Source: Aliidiomarina sedimenti
GTDB lineage: Bacteria; Pseudomonadota; Gammaproteobacteria; Enterobacterales; Alteromonadaceae
NCBI RefSeq assembly: GCF_003986955.1
Contig: NZ_PIPN01000002.1
Coordinates: 1-64,000 of the forward strand
Length of the DNA stretch: 64,000 nucleotides
Direction: 5' to 3'
Shown: piece by piece, positions 1-42,386 of the stretch
Numbering within the stretch: position 1 is the stretch's first letter
How the letters are laid out: each line of letters starts with the position of its first letter
Position numbers and translations under genes: made by a program
The notes under the pieces: model-generated
The model's database searches: none
The model's input: only the letters and a program-made list of their open reading frames with translations
Told to the model about the DNA's origin: nothing

Positions 1-127
1 GCGTCATTACAACGAGGAAAGACCTCACAGTTCACTGAATTATTTACCGCCAGCTGAGTACGCAAAACAGGTGGCATAAAAACTGAAATCTCATTGAAAA
101 TGTGGTGTTATTTCAGGGGAAAGGTCA
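1..127 (+). mobile_element. Right end of an IS3-family insertion sequence (partial)
   Basis: The window opens inside an IS3-type element. The last 26 codons of its transposase are readable up to a TAA at about 77-79. About 25 nt after the stop a terminal-repeat-like sequence ends in TCA near 127 (TGA when read inward), which is the usual IS3-family tip. Only the right end is present, so group, completeness and target duplication cannot be judged. It lies against an integron attC site, so the element probably inserted into a cassette array. The family call rests on the transposase tail; the exact tip is inferred. Confidence 0.65.
2..79 (+). CDS. IS3-family transposase OrfB, C-terminal fragment
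   Basis: Frame 2 from the first base reads RHYNEERPHSSLNYLPPAE and ends shortly afterwards at TAA. The Y-N-x-x-R-P-H-S-S-L-x-Y-x-x-P-x-E pattern is the well-known C-terminal end of the rve/DDE integrase domain of IS3-family OrfB proteins. The catalytic DDE residues lie outside the window, so activity cannot be assessed. The gene is cut by the window edge, not necessarily truncated in the genome. Confidence 0.75.
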   Translation, partial: RHYNEERPHSSLNYLPPAEYAKQVA

Positions 128-156
128 GCTCGCGTCAAATTCACTCTCCCCCTGAA

Positions 157-236
157 ACATAACGCCCGCCTAAACGCGAGCAACTTGTTGCGAGTCCAGC
201 GGACAAAGGCCGCGTTGTTTAAGGCGTTTGTTATGC
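157..236 (-). other. attC site (integron 59-base element), VCR-like
   Basis: On the minus strand the site starts with GCATAAC followed by AAACGCC and ends with GGCGGGC followed by GTTATGT. These pair as outer arms R''/R'. Inner arms with CGCG cores also pair, and two small inner hairpins (GTCC..GGAC and GCAAC..GTTGC) fill the middle. This layout, about 80 nt with imperfect palindromic arms and GTT at the crossover, is that of integron attC sites, and the ends resemble Vibrio cholerae repeats. It directly follows the TAA of the metallopeptidase-like gene in that gene's orientation, as expected for a gene cassette. Confidence 0.75.
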
Positions 237-875
237 TTATTTTTTAACTATTTGCTCTGCCGGAGTTGAAGCCAGCGATGCAGCACAACCACCATGCATA
301 TTTATATATTGTGAAACTAAATTGAAGCCTACCCAATAGGCTGCGTGATTAGGGAATTTTGACTCGTCCTCACCGCCAAAATATACCGGGTAGCTAAATT
401 TTGTGCTGTTTAGTTCCGGTCGCATTTTCTCATAGAGCGTCACCCAATCTTGATTCTGAATACCATTGAACAGAGAAGGAAGTTTACTACCGTTAAACTT
501 GGTCTCAAAATGACAAGCTAAGCCCTCTGCCACAATATTCTGTAGTAGTGTTTTACACTCTACACCGGACGAAGCCCTAACCACATGGTGGATTTCATGC
601 GCTATCACAGCAGGCAACTGAACATTAATTATATCGATAAGGTCTTCTCGGTCTGTATCTAGCATTAGATCAATAAGATATGGCGTAGTAACACACCCCA
701 AGATACCGCTCTTAGTTCTATATTCTTCGGAGCAAGGGCTTATGACGATATCTAGGTTTGGTAACTTAAGGTAATTCTGGATCTCGCTTAGGGCACTAAG
801 TGCTTTAGACTCTAAAGCCTCAATAACATGGTTGAATTTTTCACTGGCATTTAAAATGTTTATTTTGATACTCAT
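237..875 (-). CDS. Cassette-borne DUF2268-like putative zinc metallopeptidase
   Basis: A 212-residue soluble protein without an obvious signal peptide. It contains HEIHH at residues 93-97 and a Glu in VAEGLACHFE (about residue 117). This HExxH plus downstream Glu spacing is that of gluzincin metallopeptidases and closely resembles the C-terminal motif of DUF2268 (predicted Zn-dependent protease). The frame stays open further upstream, to 977, but that part is translated attC sequence, so the start at 875 (MSIKIN) is preferred; an ATG a few codons earlier (MFSWKN) is possible. The gene sits between two attC sites and its stop touches the downstream one. Base composition is visibly AT-richer than the core genes. 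Substrate and role are unknown. Confidence 0.7.
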   Translation of the reverse strand: MSIKINILNASEKFNHVIEALESKALSALSEIQNYLKLPNLDIVISPCSEEYRTKSGILGCVTTPYLIDLMLDTDREDLIDIINVQLPAVIAHEIHHVVRASSGVECKTLLQNIVAEGLACHFETKFNGSKLPSLFNGIQNQDWVTLYEKMRPELNSTKFSYPVYFGGEDESKFPNHAAYWVGFNLVSQYINMHGGCAASLASTPAEQIVKK

Positions 876-905
876 ATTCTTCCATGAAAACATAACTATT
901 GATAA

Positions 906-963
906 GCATAACGCCCCCCAATGTGCACCGCTTGCGGCATCGCTTTTGAGCGGTTTGTTAGTC
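906..963 (-). other. Second attC-like site, upstream of the metallopeptidase cassette
   Basis: On the minus strand this 58-nt stretch begins GACTAACAAACCGCTCAA and ends GGGGGGCGTTATGC, with an internal GCCGC-AA-GCGGT hairpin. The R''-like (TAACAA) and R'-like (GTTATGC) boxes and the length match classic 59-base elements, but the arms pair less perfectly than those of the site at 157-236. It separates the small ORF at 1018-1200 from the metallopeptidase gene, which is where an attC should be. The start of the metallopeptidase gene follows about 30 nt downstream. Confidence 0.55.
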
Positions 964-1017
964 GCTTCATCTCGCAAATACCGTGCTGATGCGCTTCGTA
1001 ATGAAGCTATCTTAAAT

Positions 1018-1200
1018 TCAACCTAATGAAGCCTTGGTTTCCTCAAAGCCATTTTGAAACCCATCAGAGAAGCCCGGAAGCGCAACAGCGACAACTAAAC
1101 ACAGAGACGCGGCGAGCATCGTGTTTCGATTGTTTTTCTTATACCCAACGACCATTAATACAACGAATGAAATCAATAAGATAACTTCTAAATAGAACAT
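1018..1200 (-). CDS. Small hydrophobic membrane protein (possible cassette ORF)
   Basis: A 60-residue ORF with two hydrophobic stretches (about residues 2-19 and 29-43) separated by a basic YKKNNRN turn, consistent with a helical-hairpin membrane peptide. An AGGAAT ribosome-binding-like sequence lies a suitable distance before the ATG. It is followed in the same orientation, about 55 nt later, by an attC-like site, so it may be the gene of the first cassette. I do not recognise a family. No attC was found between it and the hydrolase upstream. Confidence 0.5.
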   Translation of the reverse strand: MFYLEVILLISFVVLMVVGYKKNNRNTMLAASLCLVVAVALPGFSDGFQNGFEETKASLG

Positions 1201-1261
1201 TTTCAGATTCCTAAGTTAAGGTATTACAGCAATTCGGTTTTCCAGATAACCATTGCCCCAC

Positions 1262-2260
1262 TCACCGCTCAAGCACCTCACCCAGCCACTCAAATATATC
1301 GTCCTCTGAGACTCGCATAAGTGAGTGGCCCTGGCCGGGGTAGATCTTAAGCTCGTACTCGTGTCCGCTTTCGTCCAGCGCGGCGGCCAGCAGGTGGGCC
1401 TGTTCTACGTCCACTTTGTCGTCCTGGTCGCCATGTAGTATCAGTACTGGCACCTGAGGCAGCTCGTCGGCCCAGTAGACGACTGAGCGGTCTATCATCG
1501 CTTGCTCGCGGTTTTCAGCAAAGTTGGGGACCCGGTTTTGGTAGACCTGGAGCATTTCCGGGCGGGTTACCAGGGATTGTTCGTGGTCGGCTGCGCCCAT
1601 CTCGAAAATCAACGCATGGATGTCGTCGCGCCCGCGTGCAACCTGCATCATTTGGCTGGCGCCCCGACTTGAGCCCCACAGTGCAATGCGGTTCTGGTCG
1701 ACGTGGTCCATGCCCTTGACGATAGACAGAATGGTTCGTGCGTCTTCAACATCGACGCCACCAAATTCGTCGTCCGCACGCAGGTTGCTGCCGATAATGG
1801 TATAGCCCCGGTCCATCATTCCCATGTACCGGGCATACAGGTTCAAAAAGGTAATCGCACCGAATCCGCCGTTACCGCCGCGGTGATAAACCAGCACCGG
1901 CGTGTCTTCGCTATCACTGCTACCTGCATTAGGGGGGCGCACCATAAAGCCGGGTACTTCGACACCGTCTACCTCGTAGGTGAAACGTATGCATTCAGCC
2001 TGACGTTGCCGCATTGCAAACACCTGGTCACTAAAAAGGCGATCCACAGCCTCTCTGGACATGCCACTGAGTTCCCGCGCCATAGTGCGCAAACGCTCCG
2101 CGTCATCAAACGGTGGAGCGAAGCAGTCATGCTGGCTGGTCATGCCTTCATAGCTGCTGAAAGACTGCTGCAACTCCCCTGAATCAGCAACAGCCGACGT
2201 TGCAGTCGCCAAAAAAGTGAGAGAAATAAGTGGTACCGCAAGCAGTGACGTTTTGAACAT
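1262..2260 (-). CDS. Secreted alpha/beta hydrolase (prolyl-oligopeptidase/S9-like)
   Basis: 332 residues. A Sec signal peptide (MFKTSLLAVPLISLTFLATA, cleavage probably after the AVA near residue 25) indicates periplasmic or external location. The catalytic triad of an alpha/beta hydrolase is visible: nucleophile Ser198 in GSSRG (residues 196-200), an Asp in HGDQDD (278-281) and His312 in GQGHS. An HRGGNGG oxyanion-type loop lies near residue 126. Its arrangement is closest to S9 peptidase/acyl-aminoacyl-peptidase or dienelactone-hydrolase-like proteins. Substrate cannot be told from sequence. It stands alone behind a long leader, between the cassette remnant and lpdA. Confidence 0.75.
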   Translation of the reverse strand: MFKTSLLAVPLISLTFLATATSAVADSGELQQSFSSYEGMTSQHDCFAPPFDDAERLRTMARELSGMSREAVDRLFSDQVFAMRQRQAECIRFTYEVDGVEVPGFMVRPPNAGSSDSEDTPVLVYHRGGNGGFGAITFLNLYARYMGMMDRGYTIIGSNLRADDEFGGVDVEDARTILSIVKGMDHVDQNRIALWGSSRGASQMMQVARGRDDIHALIFEMGAADHEQSLVTRPEMLQVYQNRVPNFAENREQAMIDRSVVYWADELPQVPVLILHGDQDDKVDVEQAHLLAAALDESGHEYELKIYPGQGHSLMRVSEDDIFEWLGEVLER

Positions 2261-2458
2261 GGTGATTTTCCCTTACCCTGGTTTGTAGCCGTATGCAGGT
2301 TATAGCGCCCACGCTACCGCCCCTGCTAAGAGCTGCGCAGATTCGATCATGCGGGTGCTGAAATTGAACAGAGGTCGATGGGGCTGTACGCTCTAATCCG
2401 TTAAAGCAGGCTGCACGTGGAGGGCAATTGTAATTATTTCGTTAAGTTGAAAATCCAG
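2261..2458 (-). other. Untranslated stretch upstream of the hydrolase gene
   Basis: Together with the promoter and terminator described separately, this belongs to the only gap above 300 bases (2261-2575). If the promoter at about 2459-2485 is right, this is a leader of roughly 190 nt. I see no ORF with a convincing start, no RNA gene and no recognisable riboswitch in it. Confidence 0.3.
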
Positions 2459-2485
2459 ATTATAAGGTTCACTTTGCGATTGCAA
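2459..2485 (-). promoter_or_regulatory. Candidate sigma70 promoter for the hydrolase gene
   Basis: Minus-strand TTGCAA, a 15-nt spacer, then a perfect TATAAT. The spacer is shorter than the ideal 17, and the predicted start lies about 190 nt before the hydrolase ATG. Confidence 0.4.
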
Positions 2486-2512
2486 CCCTGACACTTGCCG
2501 GGCCGCGGGCAT

Positions 2513-2542
2513 AAAAAAACCCAACCGATTGGTTGGGTTTTT
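2513..2542 (-). terminator. Rho-independent terminator after lpdA
   Basis: Stem CCCAACC / GGTTGGG with a 4-nt loop (GATT), flanked by an A-run on the left and a T-run on the right. It works in the leftward direction after lpdA, whose stop is about 35 nt away, and could act in both directions. Confidence 0.9.
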
Positions 2543-2575
2543 AGGTTCATACCTAAACTGAAAGTAAGCTAAAGG

Positions 2576-4000
2576 TTACTTCTTCTTCGCCTTTTTGTTC
2601 GGCAAGTCAGTGATTGAACCTTCGTACATTTCAGCGGCAAGGCCAACTGATTCATGCAGCGTTGGGTGAGCATGAACGGTCAGCGCGATGTCTTCGGCGT
2701 CGCTGCCCATTTCGATGGCCAGGCAGATTTCGCCCATCAGTTCGCCAGCGTGTGAGCCAACAACTGCGCCACCAATCAAGCGGTCGTTTTCTTTATCGAA
2801 AATCAGCTTGGTGAAGCCATTGGTTGAGTTAGACGCAATGGCACGGCCCGATGCTGACCATGGGAAGGTTACAGCTTCGTACTTAACGCCCTGCTCTTTG
2901 GCTTCTTTCTCAGTCAAACCTGCCCAGCACACTTCCGGGTCGGTGTACGCAATAGAAGGAATCACCTTAGGTTCGAAGAAGTGCTTCTTGCCTGCGATGT
3001 TCTCAGCCGCTACGTGGCCTTCGTGAGTCGCTTTGTGCGCCAGCATTGGCTGACCAATGATGTCACCAATGGCGAAGATGTTGTCAGCGCTGGTGCGCAG
3101 CTGGTTATCGGTTTTGATAAAGCCTTTGTCGTCAACTTCAATGCCGGCTTTGTCGGCACCAATTTTCTTACCGTTTGGAGTACGGCCAACCGCGACCAGA
3201 ACCGCGTCGTACTTAACTGGCTTGTCTGGTGCGTTTTTGCCTTCAAAGGTAACGTGGATGCCGTCTTTCTTGGCTTCAACTTTAGTTACTTTGGTTTCAA
3301 GCATGATGTTTTCATACTTGGTTTTCATTTCTTTGGTGAAGACTTTGATCAGGTCTTTGTCGGCCGCTGGGATCAGCTGGTCCATGAACTCAACCACGTC
3401 CAGTTTCGAGCCCAGTGCGCTGTAGACACAGCCCATTTCCAGACCGATGATACCACCACCAAGAATCAGCATTTTCTCTGGTACGAATGGCAACTCAAGT
3501 GCGCTGGTTGAGTCCCAGATACGCTCGTCTTCATGTGGAATGAACGGCAGTTCGACTGGCTGTGAGCCGGCTGCGATAATGGCGTTGTCAAACTTGATAG
3601 TGGTCTCTTTGTCGCCAGACACTTTCAGTTCGTTGGCGCCGGTGAATTCACCTTTACCGGTAACTACTTTCACTTTACGCATTTTCGACATCTGGTCGAG
3701 GCCGCCGGTTAACTGGCCGACTACTTTTTCTTTGTGCGCGCGAATTTTGTCCAGGTCGATCTTAGGTTCGCCGAAGGTTACACCATGGTCGCCCATGTGC
3801 TTGGAATCTTCGATGTGCTTAGCTAAGTGCAGTAGTGCTTTTGAAGGAATACAGCCAACGTTCAAGCAAACACCGCCTAAGGTGCTGTAACGTTCAACCA
3901 ATACCACGTCGAGGCCTAAATCGGCCGCGCGGAATGCTGCTGAATACCCGCCAGGTCCTGCGCCTAGCACTACAACCTGAGTTTTAATCTCGTTACTCAT
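2576..4000 (-). CDS. lpdA: Dihydrolipoyl dehydrogenase (E3)
   Basis: 474 residues, the normal length for E3. It reoxidises the dihydrolipoyl groups of the pyruvate and 2-oxoglutarate dehydrogenase complexes and reduces NAD+. Visible are the FAD-binding GAGPGG (13-18), the redox disulfide C45-LNVG-C50, a second nucleotide-binding GGGIIG, and the C-terminal HAHPTLHE (443-450) that supplies the catalytic His445/Glu450 pair. The protein ends in a lysine tail. It is the last gene of the pdhR-aceEF-lpdA region, but a terminator at 4197-4224 separates it from aceF, so it probably also has its own promoter in 4001-4196, as E. coli lpd does. Confidence 0.98.
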   Translation of the reverse strand: MSNEIKTQVVVLGAGPGGYSAAFRAADLGLDVVLVERYSTLGGVCLNVGCIPSKALLHLAKHIEDSKHMGDHGVTFGEPKIDLDKIRAHKEKVVGQLTGGLDQMSKMRKVKVVTGKGEFTGANELKVSGDKETTIKFDNAIIAAGSQPVELPFIPHEDERIWDSTSALELPFVPEKMLILGGGIIGLEMGCVYSALGSKLDVVEFMDQLIPAADKDLIKVFTKEMKTKYENIMLETKVTKVEAKKDGIHVTFEGKNAPDKPVKYDAVLVAVGRTPNGKKIGADKAGIEVDDKGFIKTDNQLRTSADNIFAIGDIIGQPMLAHKATHEGHVAAENIAGKKHFFEPKVIPSIAYTDPEVCWAGLTEKEAKEQGVKYEAVTFPWSASGRAIASNSTNGFTKLIFDKENDRLIGGAVVGSHAGELMGEICLAIEMGSDAEDIALTVHAHPTLHESVGLAAEMYEGSITDLPNKKAKKK

Positions 4001-4196
4001 GATGACCCCTATAGTTAACCGTTTAACTTACCCGGGTACTTAATTGACCCGCTCATCCGGTAAGCAACCTGTTAGTCCAAAATTTTGTACATATAGATAC
4101 AAATTGCGCGAAATGGGCAATATTGTACCGAGAATTTCATCCAACGTCTTGTCCATTCGCCGCCTAATTCGCTCGAATGACGGCAGCGAACGGACA

Positions 4197-39847: not shown

Positions 39848-42016
39848 ATGGTTGCGATGCGTCGCTGGTTCATTCTTTTTCTTGTCGTTAGCTTCGCTGT
39901 GCTACAAGGGATCCTGATCGCGTTACTCAATAGTTATCAGACACAACAGGCAAACAACGAACGTATCGCTGCATTTCAGCAGCTTGCCACCCTGCGCGCT
40001 CAGTTTGACGGCCTCCTCAATGCGAACCTCGCCAGCATGCGTGGCTTGCGTGCCGAATTCATGGCCAACCCAGCGATCGACGAACAACGTTTTGCGACGC
40101 TCAACCAATACCTGCTGGCTGATGATCTGCATACCCGCCATGTCGCCGTAGCGCCGGATCTGGTGATCCGCTATGTCTATCCACGCAATGGCAACGAGCA
40201 GGTCCTGGGTACTGACTACCGCGAGCTCCCCACACAAATGGAGTCAGTTCGTCAGGCCATTGAAAGCGGCGATATCGTATTTCAGGGGCCAGTCCCCTTA
40301 CTGCAGGGAGGGGAGGCCCTAATCGCCCGGGTTCCCTTAGTCCATGACGACAATAACTGGGGTATTATCTCACAGGTTCTGGATCATCAGCGGCTGTTCG
40401 CTGATGCCGGGATTGGCCACGGCGACTCATTGAATACTGCATTGCGCGCTGGTGACGACCATCTCGCCGGTGATGAGCAGATCTGGAATCACGACGTGGT
40501 TGAACTACCCATTCAGTTGGGTGTGTTGCAGTGGTCCCTCGCCGGCTATCCAACATACGGCTACTGGGCACCGCCCTGGTGGCATTACTGGCCCTTGCTA
40601 CTGGCTGGGAACCTGGTCATTGCCGCCATACTGGCGTTGTTTATTGTGGTCTTCATTAACCACCGTCGACTCCAGCACGCGTTCTCGCAGATTACCGAAC
40701 AAGCGCAGCGTGACCCGTTAACCGGGCTTGTTAACCGTGTCTATTTGCGCCAGCTGCTGGGCCGCTATATCGACTATTGCGAGACGCACCAGGTAAAATT
40801 CTGTGTCCTTTTCATCGACCTCGACCATTTCAAACAAGTGAATGACAGTCTGGGCCATGATCTCGGCGACCAATTGTTGATTACCATCGCGGAGCGGCTC
40901 AGTAACCGTCTCCGTGAACGCGATATTGTTGCGCGCATCGGTGGCGATGAATTCATTCTGGTGCTCAAAGACGTCGACGATCTGGAAACCTGCATGAACC
41001 TGGCCAACCAGCTGCAGCAAACACTAACCCAGCCGGTCGAGCTGGACGGTCATCATATCCACATGCATGCCAGTATTGGCATCGCCATGTATCCGGAGGA
41101 TGGCGAAGACGTCATGACGCTGATTAAACATGCAGATGTGGCAATGTATTCAGCGAAAAGTGCAGGCCGCAACACCAGTGCCTTCTTCGACGCCAGTATG
41201 CAGCGTTCCGCCGAAAGCCAGCTCAAACTATCCGAGGAGATGCGTACAGGCCTCAACAGCGGCCAGTTCGTGATTTACTATCAGCCGATCGTCACCCCCG
41301 TCGGCGCGATAACTCACCTCGAAGCCCTGGTCCGCTGGCAACATCCCGCGTTGGGGCTGCTCAGCCCCGCTCAGTTTATACCCTGTGCCGAACGCAATGG
41401 GATTATTGCACTTATTGGTGATTTTGTACTGACCCGGGTGTGCAGCGATTTGGCTTCGTTGCGGGCCTTGATCCCCGACGTCAAAGTCAGCATTAACCGC
41501 TCGCCGGCAGAATTCAATGACCCGCAGGTAGCATCGCGCTGGCTGGCGATCATGACCGAATATCAGGTCGCCAGTCGCGATGTGATTTTCGAAATTACTG
41601 AGTCCATGTTGATGCCGGATCAGCCTCGCCAGCATGCGCTGATCAATCAGCTTGACGAAGCAGGTATTCAATTAGCAATTGATGATTTTGGCACCGGCTA
41701 CTCGTCGGTCAACTATGTCCGTCGCTTTCCAATCCGACTGATTAAAGTAGATCGCAGCTTTACTCAGCACCTGGCAGAGGACCGCCGGGTGGTGGCAATG
41801 GTCGGTGCGCTGGTGCAAATGGCGAAAGCGCTGGACGTACAAGTGGTTGCCGAAGGCGTCGAAACCCAGGCTCAGGCGCAGATGCTTGAGACCCTTGGGG
41901 TCGATTATTTGCAGGGGTATCTTTACACCGAGCCGTTACCGCGTAACCAGCTGGCTAAATGGTATCCAGACTATGCCGCCAGGCTTTCAGCCCGCGGCAT
42001 AGCACAGATAAAATAA
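39848..42016 (+). CDS. CHASE-domain diguanylate cyclase/phosphodiesterase (GGDEF-EAL)
   Basis: 722 residues. Transmembrane helix 1 (about 7-27), periplasmic CHASE-type sensor (about 40-215, with the LGTDYRELP and QGPVPLLQGGEALIARVPL signatures), helix 2 (about 240-270), GGDEF domain with GGDEF at 365-369 and an RERD inhibitory site just before it, then an EAL domain with EAL at 492-494. EAL metal and catalytic residues look present (EITES, DDFGTGYSS, KVDRSF, AEGVE, LQGYLYTEP). Both c-di-GMP synthesis and breakdown are therefore possible; which one dominates cannot be told. It is divergent from the dcw cluster and its stop meets the rnpB 3' end. Confidence 0.93.
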   Translation: MVAMRRWFILFLVVSFAVLQGILIALLNSYQTQQANNERIAAFQQLATLRAQFDGLLNANLASMRGLRAEFMANPAIDEQRFATLNQYLLADDLHTRHVAVAPDLVIRYVYPRNGNEQVLGTDYRELPTQMESVRQAIESGDIVFQGPVPLLQGGEALIARVPLVHDDNNWGIISQVLDHQRLFADAGIGHGDSLNTALRAGDDHLAGDEQIWNHDVVELPIQLGVLQWSLAGYPTYGYWAPPWWHYWPLLLAGNLVIAAILALFIVVFINHRRLQHAFSQITEQAQRDPLTGLVNRVYLRQLLGRYIDYCETHQVKFCVLFIDLDHFKQVNDSLGHDLGDQLLITIAERLSNRLRERDIVARIGGDEFILVLKDVDDLETCMNLANQLQQTLTQPVELDGHHIHMHASIGIAMYPEDGEDVMTLIKHADVAMYSAKSAGRNTSAFFDASMQRSAESQLKLSEEMRTGLNSGQFVIYYQPIVTPVGAITHLEALVRWQHPALGLLSPAQFIPCAERNGIIALIGDFVLTRVCSDLASLRALIPDVKVSINRSPAEFNDPQVASRWLAIMTEYQVASRDVIFEITESMLMPDQPRQHALINQLDEAGIQLAIDDFGTGYSSVNYVRRFPIRLIKVDRSFTQHLAEDRRVVAMVGALVQMAKALDVQVVAEGVETQAQAQMLETLGVDYLQGYLYTEPLPRNQLAKWYPDYAARLSARGIAQIK

Positions 42017-42017
42017 G

Positions 42018-42386
<369 letters not shown>

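Follow-up and report, generated by a model that had tools for sequence, protein, structure and literature searches.

A cluster of attC sites that lacks an integrase is known as a CALIN, for which the published definition sets a threshold of two attC sites (PMC9024848). In a laboratory study on Vibrio cholerae, array inversion results in rapid inactivation of the integrase and in the array inverting again through IS3 copies (PMC11023631). DUF2268 (PF10026) is a family of predicted Zn-dependent proteases. Judged by their titles, the papers found on this family include none about integrons, and a literature search joining integron, Idiomarina and attC returned no paper.

Here, we describe a locus at the start of a 64,000-nucleotide stretch of the Aliidiomarina sedimenti genome (contig NZ_PIPN01000002.1, positions 1 to 64,000), referred to below as the window. 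The locus resembles a CALIN (PMC9024848) in having at least two attC sites in one orientation and single-gene cassettes, with no integrase found in the genome. It differs from CALINs in general in that the clade still shows the likely source, an integrase gene (intI) at the same locus in a congener (G011), which is frameshifted in the draft sequence. The cassette protein shares with DUF2268 a near full-length profile match, the HExxH motif and a downstream Glu, and this member of the family travels as an integron cassette. The best overall explanation, in which we have high confidence, is that the locus is integron cassette 2 in the edge of a CALIN and carries the gene of a putative gluzincin-like peptidase. 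A cassette at the edge of an integrase-less array is a well-known kind of system, and its cargo is a little-studied conserved enzyme. The locus offers a cleanly delimited cassette with an uncharacterised, conserved and selected putative enzyme.

Organization of the Locus

The first base of the window is also that of contig C3 in a draft genome (10 contigs, 2.85 Mb) that has a completeness rating of 99.94% and in which some short stretches read N. Read on the minus strand from lpd, the order is an alpha/beta hydrolase gene, a 60-aa ORF, an attC site, a 212-aa ORF, a second attC site and a stub of 35 bp (162-128), after which the right end of an IS3-family element extends to the contig edge. The features are as follows, with L011 denoting the Alkalimonas amylolytica locus and G008, G010 and G011 three congeners.

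1-127, plus strand: 3' end of an IS3-family element; bases 2-79 are the transposase C-terminus (rve_3 match, 2e-6), and this 127-bp end also lies on two further contigs of the genome.
128-162, minus strand: start of a third cassette, interrupted by the IS; positions 128-131, presumably the 4-bp target duplication, match the flank at the start of contig C4 but not those of C6 or C8; the part on C4 matches Imm26 (PF15428, 46.5 bits).
157-236, minus strand: attC_down, the attC site of the DUF2268 cassette, with R'' GCATAAC and R' GTTATGT; a similar attC lies behind the same gene in L011 and in G010.
163-911, minus strand: complete gene cassette 2, 749 bp, with cut points G|TTATGC and G|TTATGT; its counterpart in L011 has equal length and 85.3% identity.
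237-875, minus strand: gene of a DUF2268 putative zinc metallopeptidase of 212 aa, ATG at 875 and TAA at 239-237; PF10026, 105 bits.
906-963, minus strand: attC_up, the upstream boundary, GACTAAC...GTTATGC; its left part comes from cassette 1 and its R' from cassette 2.
912-1250, minus strand: probable cassette 1, whose 5' boundary (about 1250) is uncertain; in genome G063 (locus L120), a gene homologous to its own makes up a clean cassette.
1018-1200, minus strand: 60-aa protein of cassette 1; of 295 genomes of the family, 15, the own one among them, encode a homolog.
1262-2260, minus strand: alpha/beta hydrolase (Peptidase_S9-like; PF00326, 63.9 bits) on the chromosomal side of the array, with homologs elsewhere in G008 (76%) and in G011 (70%).
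2576-4000, minus strand: lpd, dihydrolipoamide dehydrogenase (named by eye), the conserved flank, found in all 17 genomes of the genus, counting the own one.

Boundaries of the Cassette

The initial annotation, made from the sequence without database searches, placed two attC sites of the same orientation around a single gene at 157-963. These coordinates are exact, on the minus strand, and the stop codon does abut the downstream site as described, TAA (239-237) being followed directly by R'' GCATAAC. Both the R'' and R' cores of attC_down are present, in the same orientation as the DUF2268 gene. The stretch from 157 to 963 is confirmed as a real integron cassette layout, that of cassette 2 of the array.

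In the topology of integron cassettes, the 5' end of a cassette should complement the R'' box of its own attC. The 5' end of cassette 2, GTTATGC, is the exact complement of R'' (GCATAAC) in attC_down. Of the 32 cassettes that were scored from five other arrays or parts of arrays, this rule is followed at all three variable bases in 23 and not fully in nine, a group that includes the first L011 cassette, listed with a wrong cut base, and some cassettes that span an unlisted attC. The GC content of cassette 2 is 0.411 versus 0.536 in window positions 3001-64000.

The cut points are also delimited by comparison. A protein scan of genome contigs finds four relatives of the DUF2268 protein, in Alkalimonas amylolytica (83% aa identity), Arsukibacterium sp. 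MJ3 (72%) and two Thalassotalea (57-58%). The Alkalimonas gene lies within an array in which pattern searches, inspection by eye and an arm scan together locate eight attC sites. Its cassette, 749 bp long like that of the window, is 85.3% identical over 750 columns, and outside the cassette forced global alignments give 44-45% upstream, with 44% over 200 bp, and 54% over 28 columns downstream. At the Arsukibacterium locus (L012), for which only the 5' ends were compared, identity is 90% over the initial 80 bp of the cassette and 45% over the preceding 60 bp. The start of homology is G|TTATGC in the window, Alkalimonas and Arsukibacterium alike. Since both limits of the homology with the Alkalimonas cassette coincide with recombination points, the flanks have more than a chance resemblance to attC. 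Comparison with these arrays shows that an integron integrase inserted the cassette, which carries one gene, by acting at G|TTATGC.

The DUF2268 Protein

A profile search places the protein firmly in the family that the initial annotation had proposed for it, with a PF10026 score of 105.1 bits against a cut-off of 23.6. The match extends from residue 27 to 210, corresponding to profile positions 7-194 of 195, and covers nearly the whole protein. The motif read earlier as HEIHH plus a downstream Glu is also well founded, in that an alignment of 14 sequences shows no variation at H93, E94, H97 or E117, and neither does a second set of nine, which adds the Vibrio and Klebsiella plasmid copies and has seven sequences in common with the first. 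The HExxH motif is followed by a Glu 20 residues after the second His, and this is the thermolysin-like spacing. Against Alkalimonas L011, dN/dS is 0.125 (dS 0.67), and against Arsukibacterium it is 0.142, a rough value at a dS of 1.24. These ratios indicate that the gene is kept as a protein under purifying selection.

An AlphaFold2 model built from five sequences has a mean pLDDT of 78.7 and a pTM of 0.79, the five models ranging from 78.7 to 44.8. Foldseek gives no match in the PDB at E <= 0.001, the best being an M61 aminopeptidase at 2.8e-3, and a sequence search of the PDB gives nothing below E 0.4. The chains that VIA-align 2 aligns with the model belong mostly to gluzincins, among them M1 aminopeptidases, leukotriene A4 hydrolase and enzymes of the M30, M61 and thermolysin types; their Z values are 8.2-9.3, with about 175-190 residues aligned at 3.5-4.5 A. 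The top row is a TFIID chain at Z 9.6. In this method, Z values of 7-8 are often reached by models without a clear match, and families may be missing from its list. The model favours a gluzincin fold for the DUF2268 protein. The predicted fold and the spacing of HExxH and Glu are what the protein would share with the gluzincins (M1, M30, M61 and the thermolysin group). It differs from them in being only 212 residues long, with no room for their extra domains, and no signal peptide is evident by eye.

Conserved residues, selection and predicted fold agree with the earlier reading of the product as a zinc protease, and its activity, which that reading called probable, is putative. From conservation and fold, H93, H97 and E117 would hold one zinc ion and Glu94 would activate a water molecule for cleavage of a peptide bond in the manner of gluzincins. 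The protein is most likely a selected accessory peptidase, predicted to be intracellular.

DUF2268 Genes in Other Arrays

Seventeen DUF2268 loci were examined (the window, L011-L014, L041-L049 and L106-L108). An attC lies on both sides of the gene in three of them, namely the window, L011 and L107, and L012 has one attC upstream and a downstream one that is apparently degenerate, by eye. The remaining 13 show no attC pair in the scans made, and several are short or truncated loci. These 13 include the Thalassotalea loci, with one attC each at about 1 kb and 5.5 kb upstream, and a Klebsiella plasmid locus with one loose scan match 91 bp upstream of the gene.

Relatives of the protein are sparse at the E-values applied. 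At E <= 0.001, 10 genomes among 394 from the order contain one, and at E <= 1e-10 two of 369 from the class do; both counts include the own genome. On plasmids, 81 records contain DUF2268, all under 60% identity, and two were inspected. In the Klebsiella variicola plasmid, the inspected locus holds no attC array. In the Vibrio campbellii plasmid (NZ_CP050482.1), a DUF2268 gene lies between two attC sites, which we label VCR-type. The Vibrio cassette shares this layout with the window and differs from it in its 27% identical protein, longer attC sites, plasmid location and adjoining GNAT genes. Given the V. campbellii gene, the family has been cassette cargo more than once, and given the relatives that occur without an attC pair, it is not cassette-specific. 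These distributions indicate that the family has entered integrons more than once, yet is not confined to them. The initial annotation called proteases uncommon as cassette cargo; DUF2268 for its part is found as a cassette in further lineages. DUF2268 cargo is present in attC arrays of three named genera besides the own genome: Alkalimonas, Arsukibacterium and Vibrio.

Continuation of the Array and Its Cargo

Across the genome, the IS of the window has three right ends, all at contig ends, plus an 89% relative inside C1. Its left ends are confined to C4, C6 and C8, each of which starts with one; the remaining readable contig ends carry neither. By their 4-bp flanks, the window end (GCTC) pairs with C4 and the C1 end (TATG) with C6. 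The reading frame of the Imm26-type cassette is continuous across the junction of the window and C4. Because the target duplications match and the reading frame is continuous, we infer that the array probably continues on C4 behind an IS3-type insertion. Within 6.5 kb, C4 carries six attC-like sites on the plus strand and a weaker seventh. Its products include an Imm26 protein, a DUF2971 protein that matches the candidate-defence model PDC-S31 in PADLOC (1.9e-15) and, further on, an HTH protein.

Contig C8 of the same genome (L102 / L075) has a second cluster of attC-like sites at 357-2101, read as minus-strand, which adjoins a further copy of the IS left end described above; one of its products matches PADLOC TIR-TM at 6.7e-78. 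The IS flanks at the end of C7 and the start of C8 are one base apart (GCTA vs GCCA), and their pairing is less certain than that of the window and C4.

Integron arrays carry phage-defence genes, and the DUF2268 protein could likewise be an anti-phage or anti-competitor effector, with the array as a defence store. The Imm26, DUF2971 (PDC-S31) and TIR-TM proteins encoded in the other attC-bearing regions of the genome speak for this reading, which we consider unlikely, as the DUF2268 protein itself has no PADLOC match (0 families at E <= 0.01), its cassette has no partner gene and no homolog appears at E <= 1e-5 in 50,697 phage records. Quite unlikely, too, is a wider proposal of a line of stand-alone cassette-borne intracellular DUF2268 zinc peptidases that would cut a phage or competitor protein and, for that reason, would have been taken up repeatedly by unrelated integrons in several genera of Gammaproteobacteria. 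If it were true, one small partnerless gene would confer immunity. An accessory intracellular peptidase is the function that we retain as most likely for the protein.

Integrase and CALIN Status

In the own genome, a search with TIGR02249 gives nothing over its 265-bit cut-off. It gives four pieces at two tyrosine-recombinase genes, the best at 81 bits, and these genes are taken for Xer genes. Matches below the cut-off occur in all 14 control genomes, and therefore only matches over 265 bits count. No integrase ORF lies at 965-4000, and none was found in the rest of the window, as the initial annotation had noted for the vicinity of the cassette. An intI beside the array, as in a complete integron, was found neither in the window nor in the genome, whose draft state includes stretches of N, and at least two attC sites are present, which corresponds to a CALIN.

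Within the genus, six of 17 genomes have an intI over the cut-off, and G002 has a partial, stop-bearing match below it. The G011 gene scores 348 bits against the 265-bit cut-off, its last part being in another frame in the draft sequence. It adjoins lpd with two ORFs between and is divergent from minus-strand attC sites. In the other five, intI is on a different contig from lpd or more than 500 kb away (G012), so the site near lpd is not common to the genus. In G010, with lpd listed at 100% identity on the protein level, no intI passes the cut-off. The corresponding position downstream of lpd is taken by a long array, in which the DUF2268 gene survives as a remnant together with its attC, 87% identical over 166 bp. 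This G010 array (L078 4809-13828) has 14 listed attC sites, and its products match the GFA, RelA/SpoT-like and GNAT families.

Since no integron integrase is found in the draft genome, the array is read as a CALIN whose lpd-proximal edge lies in the window, and it is probably now static. The simplest account is that an integron was present near lpd in this subclade, its integrase decayed or was deleted, and the array was then reshaped partly by IS. What the subclade holds looks like one chromosomal integron in several states: in G011 an integrase, frameshifted in the draft, stands beside the array; in G010 a long array has no detected integrase; and in the own genome the array is cut by an IS and none was found. 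The two readings first offered for the locus, a CALIN-type remnant or the edge of a chromosomal array, both fit, as the array goes on to C4 and no intI passes the cut-off.

An intact chromosomal integron edge whose integrase is merely unassembled is very unlikely. The assembly is broken at the IS and at repeats, short stretches of the genome read N and over-cut-off intI genes exist in those six congeneric genomes, which leaves such a gene some room; against this, the lpd-side edge is contiguous and without intI, nothing exceeds the cut-off in a genome rated 99.94% complete, and the close congener G010 is also without intI.

Specificity of the attC Sites

As a bare DNA hairpin, attC_down has a z of -2.24, with 8 of 300 shuffles as low in energy; attC_up, at z -1.1 with 45 of 300 shuffles as low, is no better than shuffles. 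In a MAFFT alignment of attC sites, the L boxes do not fall into register, and RNAalifold gives no base pairs. Scans by arm energy are unspecific, the first version giving 42 matches in window positions 3001-64000 and a stricter version 12. A core pattern for attC, defined post hoc, occurs twice in the 2.85-Mb genome, both times at this cassette, and once in the backwards control.

The initial annotation would have been overturned by the lack of attC at the two sites or by conservation of the gene and both flanks as ordinary chromosome. Both sites behave as attC. A conserved chromosomal locus is ruled out, since in the 1.5 kb downstream of lpd, sequence of cassette 2 occurs in only one of 16 congeners, G010, where it is a remnant. 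That an ordinary chromosomal gene is flanked by chance attC-like sequences has a negligible probability: 13 of 17 DUF2268 loci lack an attC pair or one-sided array context at the gene and the loose arm scan gives its 12 matches in 61 kb of control sequence, but homology to two other arrays breaks at the cut points, which rules this out, the locus is not conserved among congeners and the R''/5' complementarity is exact.

Cassette 1 and the Chromosomal Side

The upstream neighbour, cassette 1, fails the R''/5'-end rule, and its expected 5' end, GTTAGTC, is not found within one mismatch in window positions 1-4100. In L120 (genome G063), the homolog of the 60-aa ORF (1018-1200) forms a clean cassette among several attC sites. 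The stretch from 912 to about 1250 is therefore read, despite the missing 5' end, as a probable cassette with a damaged or fused 5' edge.

A scan of the window with Rfam gives RNase P at 42015-42384 and one sub-threshold leader, and no match relevant to the cassette. By consensus scans of positions 1-2600, promoter-like sites number two versus 3.3 expected, and no promoter is claimed; terminator-like sites number six versus 2.9 expected.

Downstream of lpd, an intergenic element of about 100 bp (window 2306-2407) recurs in G008 and G011. G008 carries two equally oriented copies of it, separated by about 41 kb; one lies near lpd, the other near the hydrolase homolog. Recombination between copies of this element could be a route by which lpd was brought beside the hydrolase. 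The ORF that adjoins the hydrolase homolog in G008 (L021 385-1251) resembles, by eye, a class D beta-lactamase.
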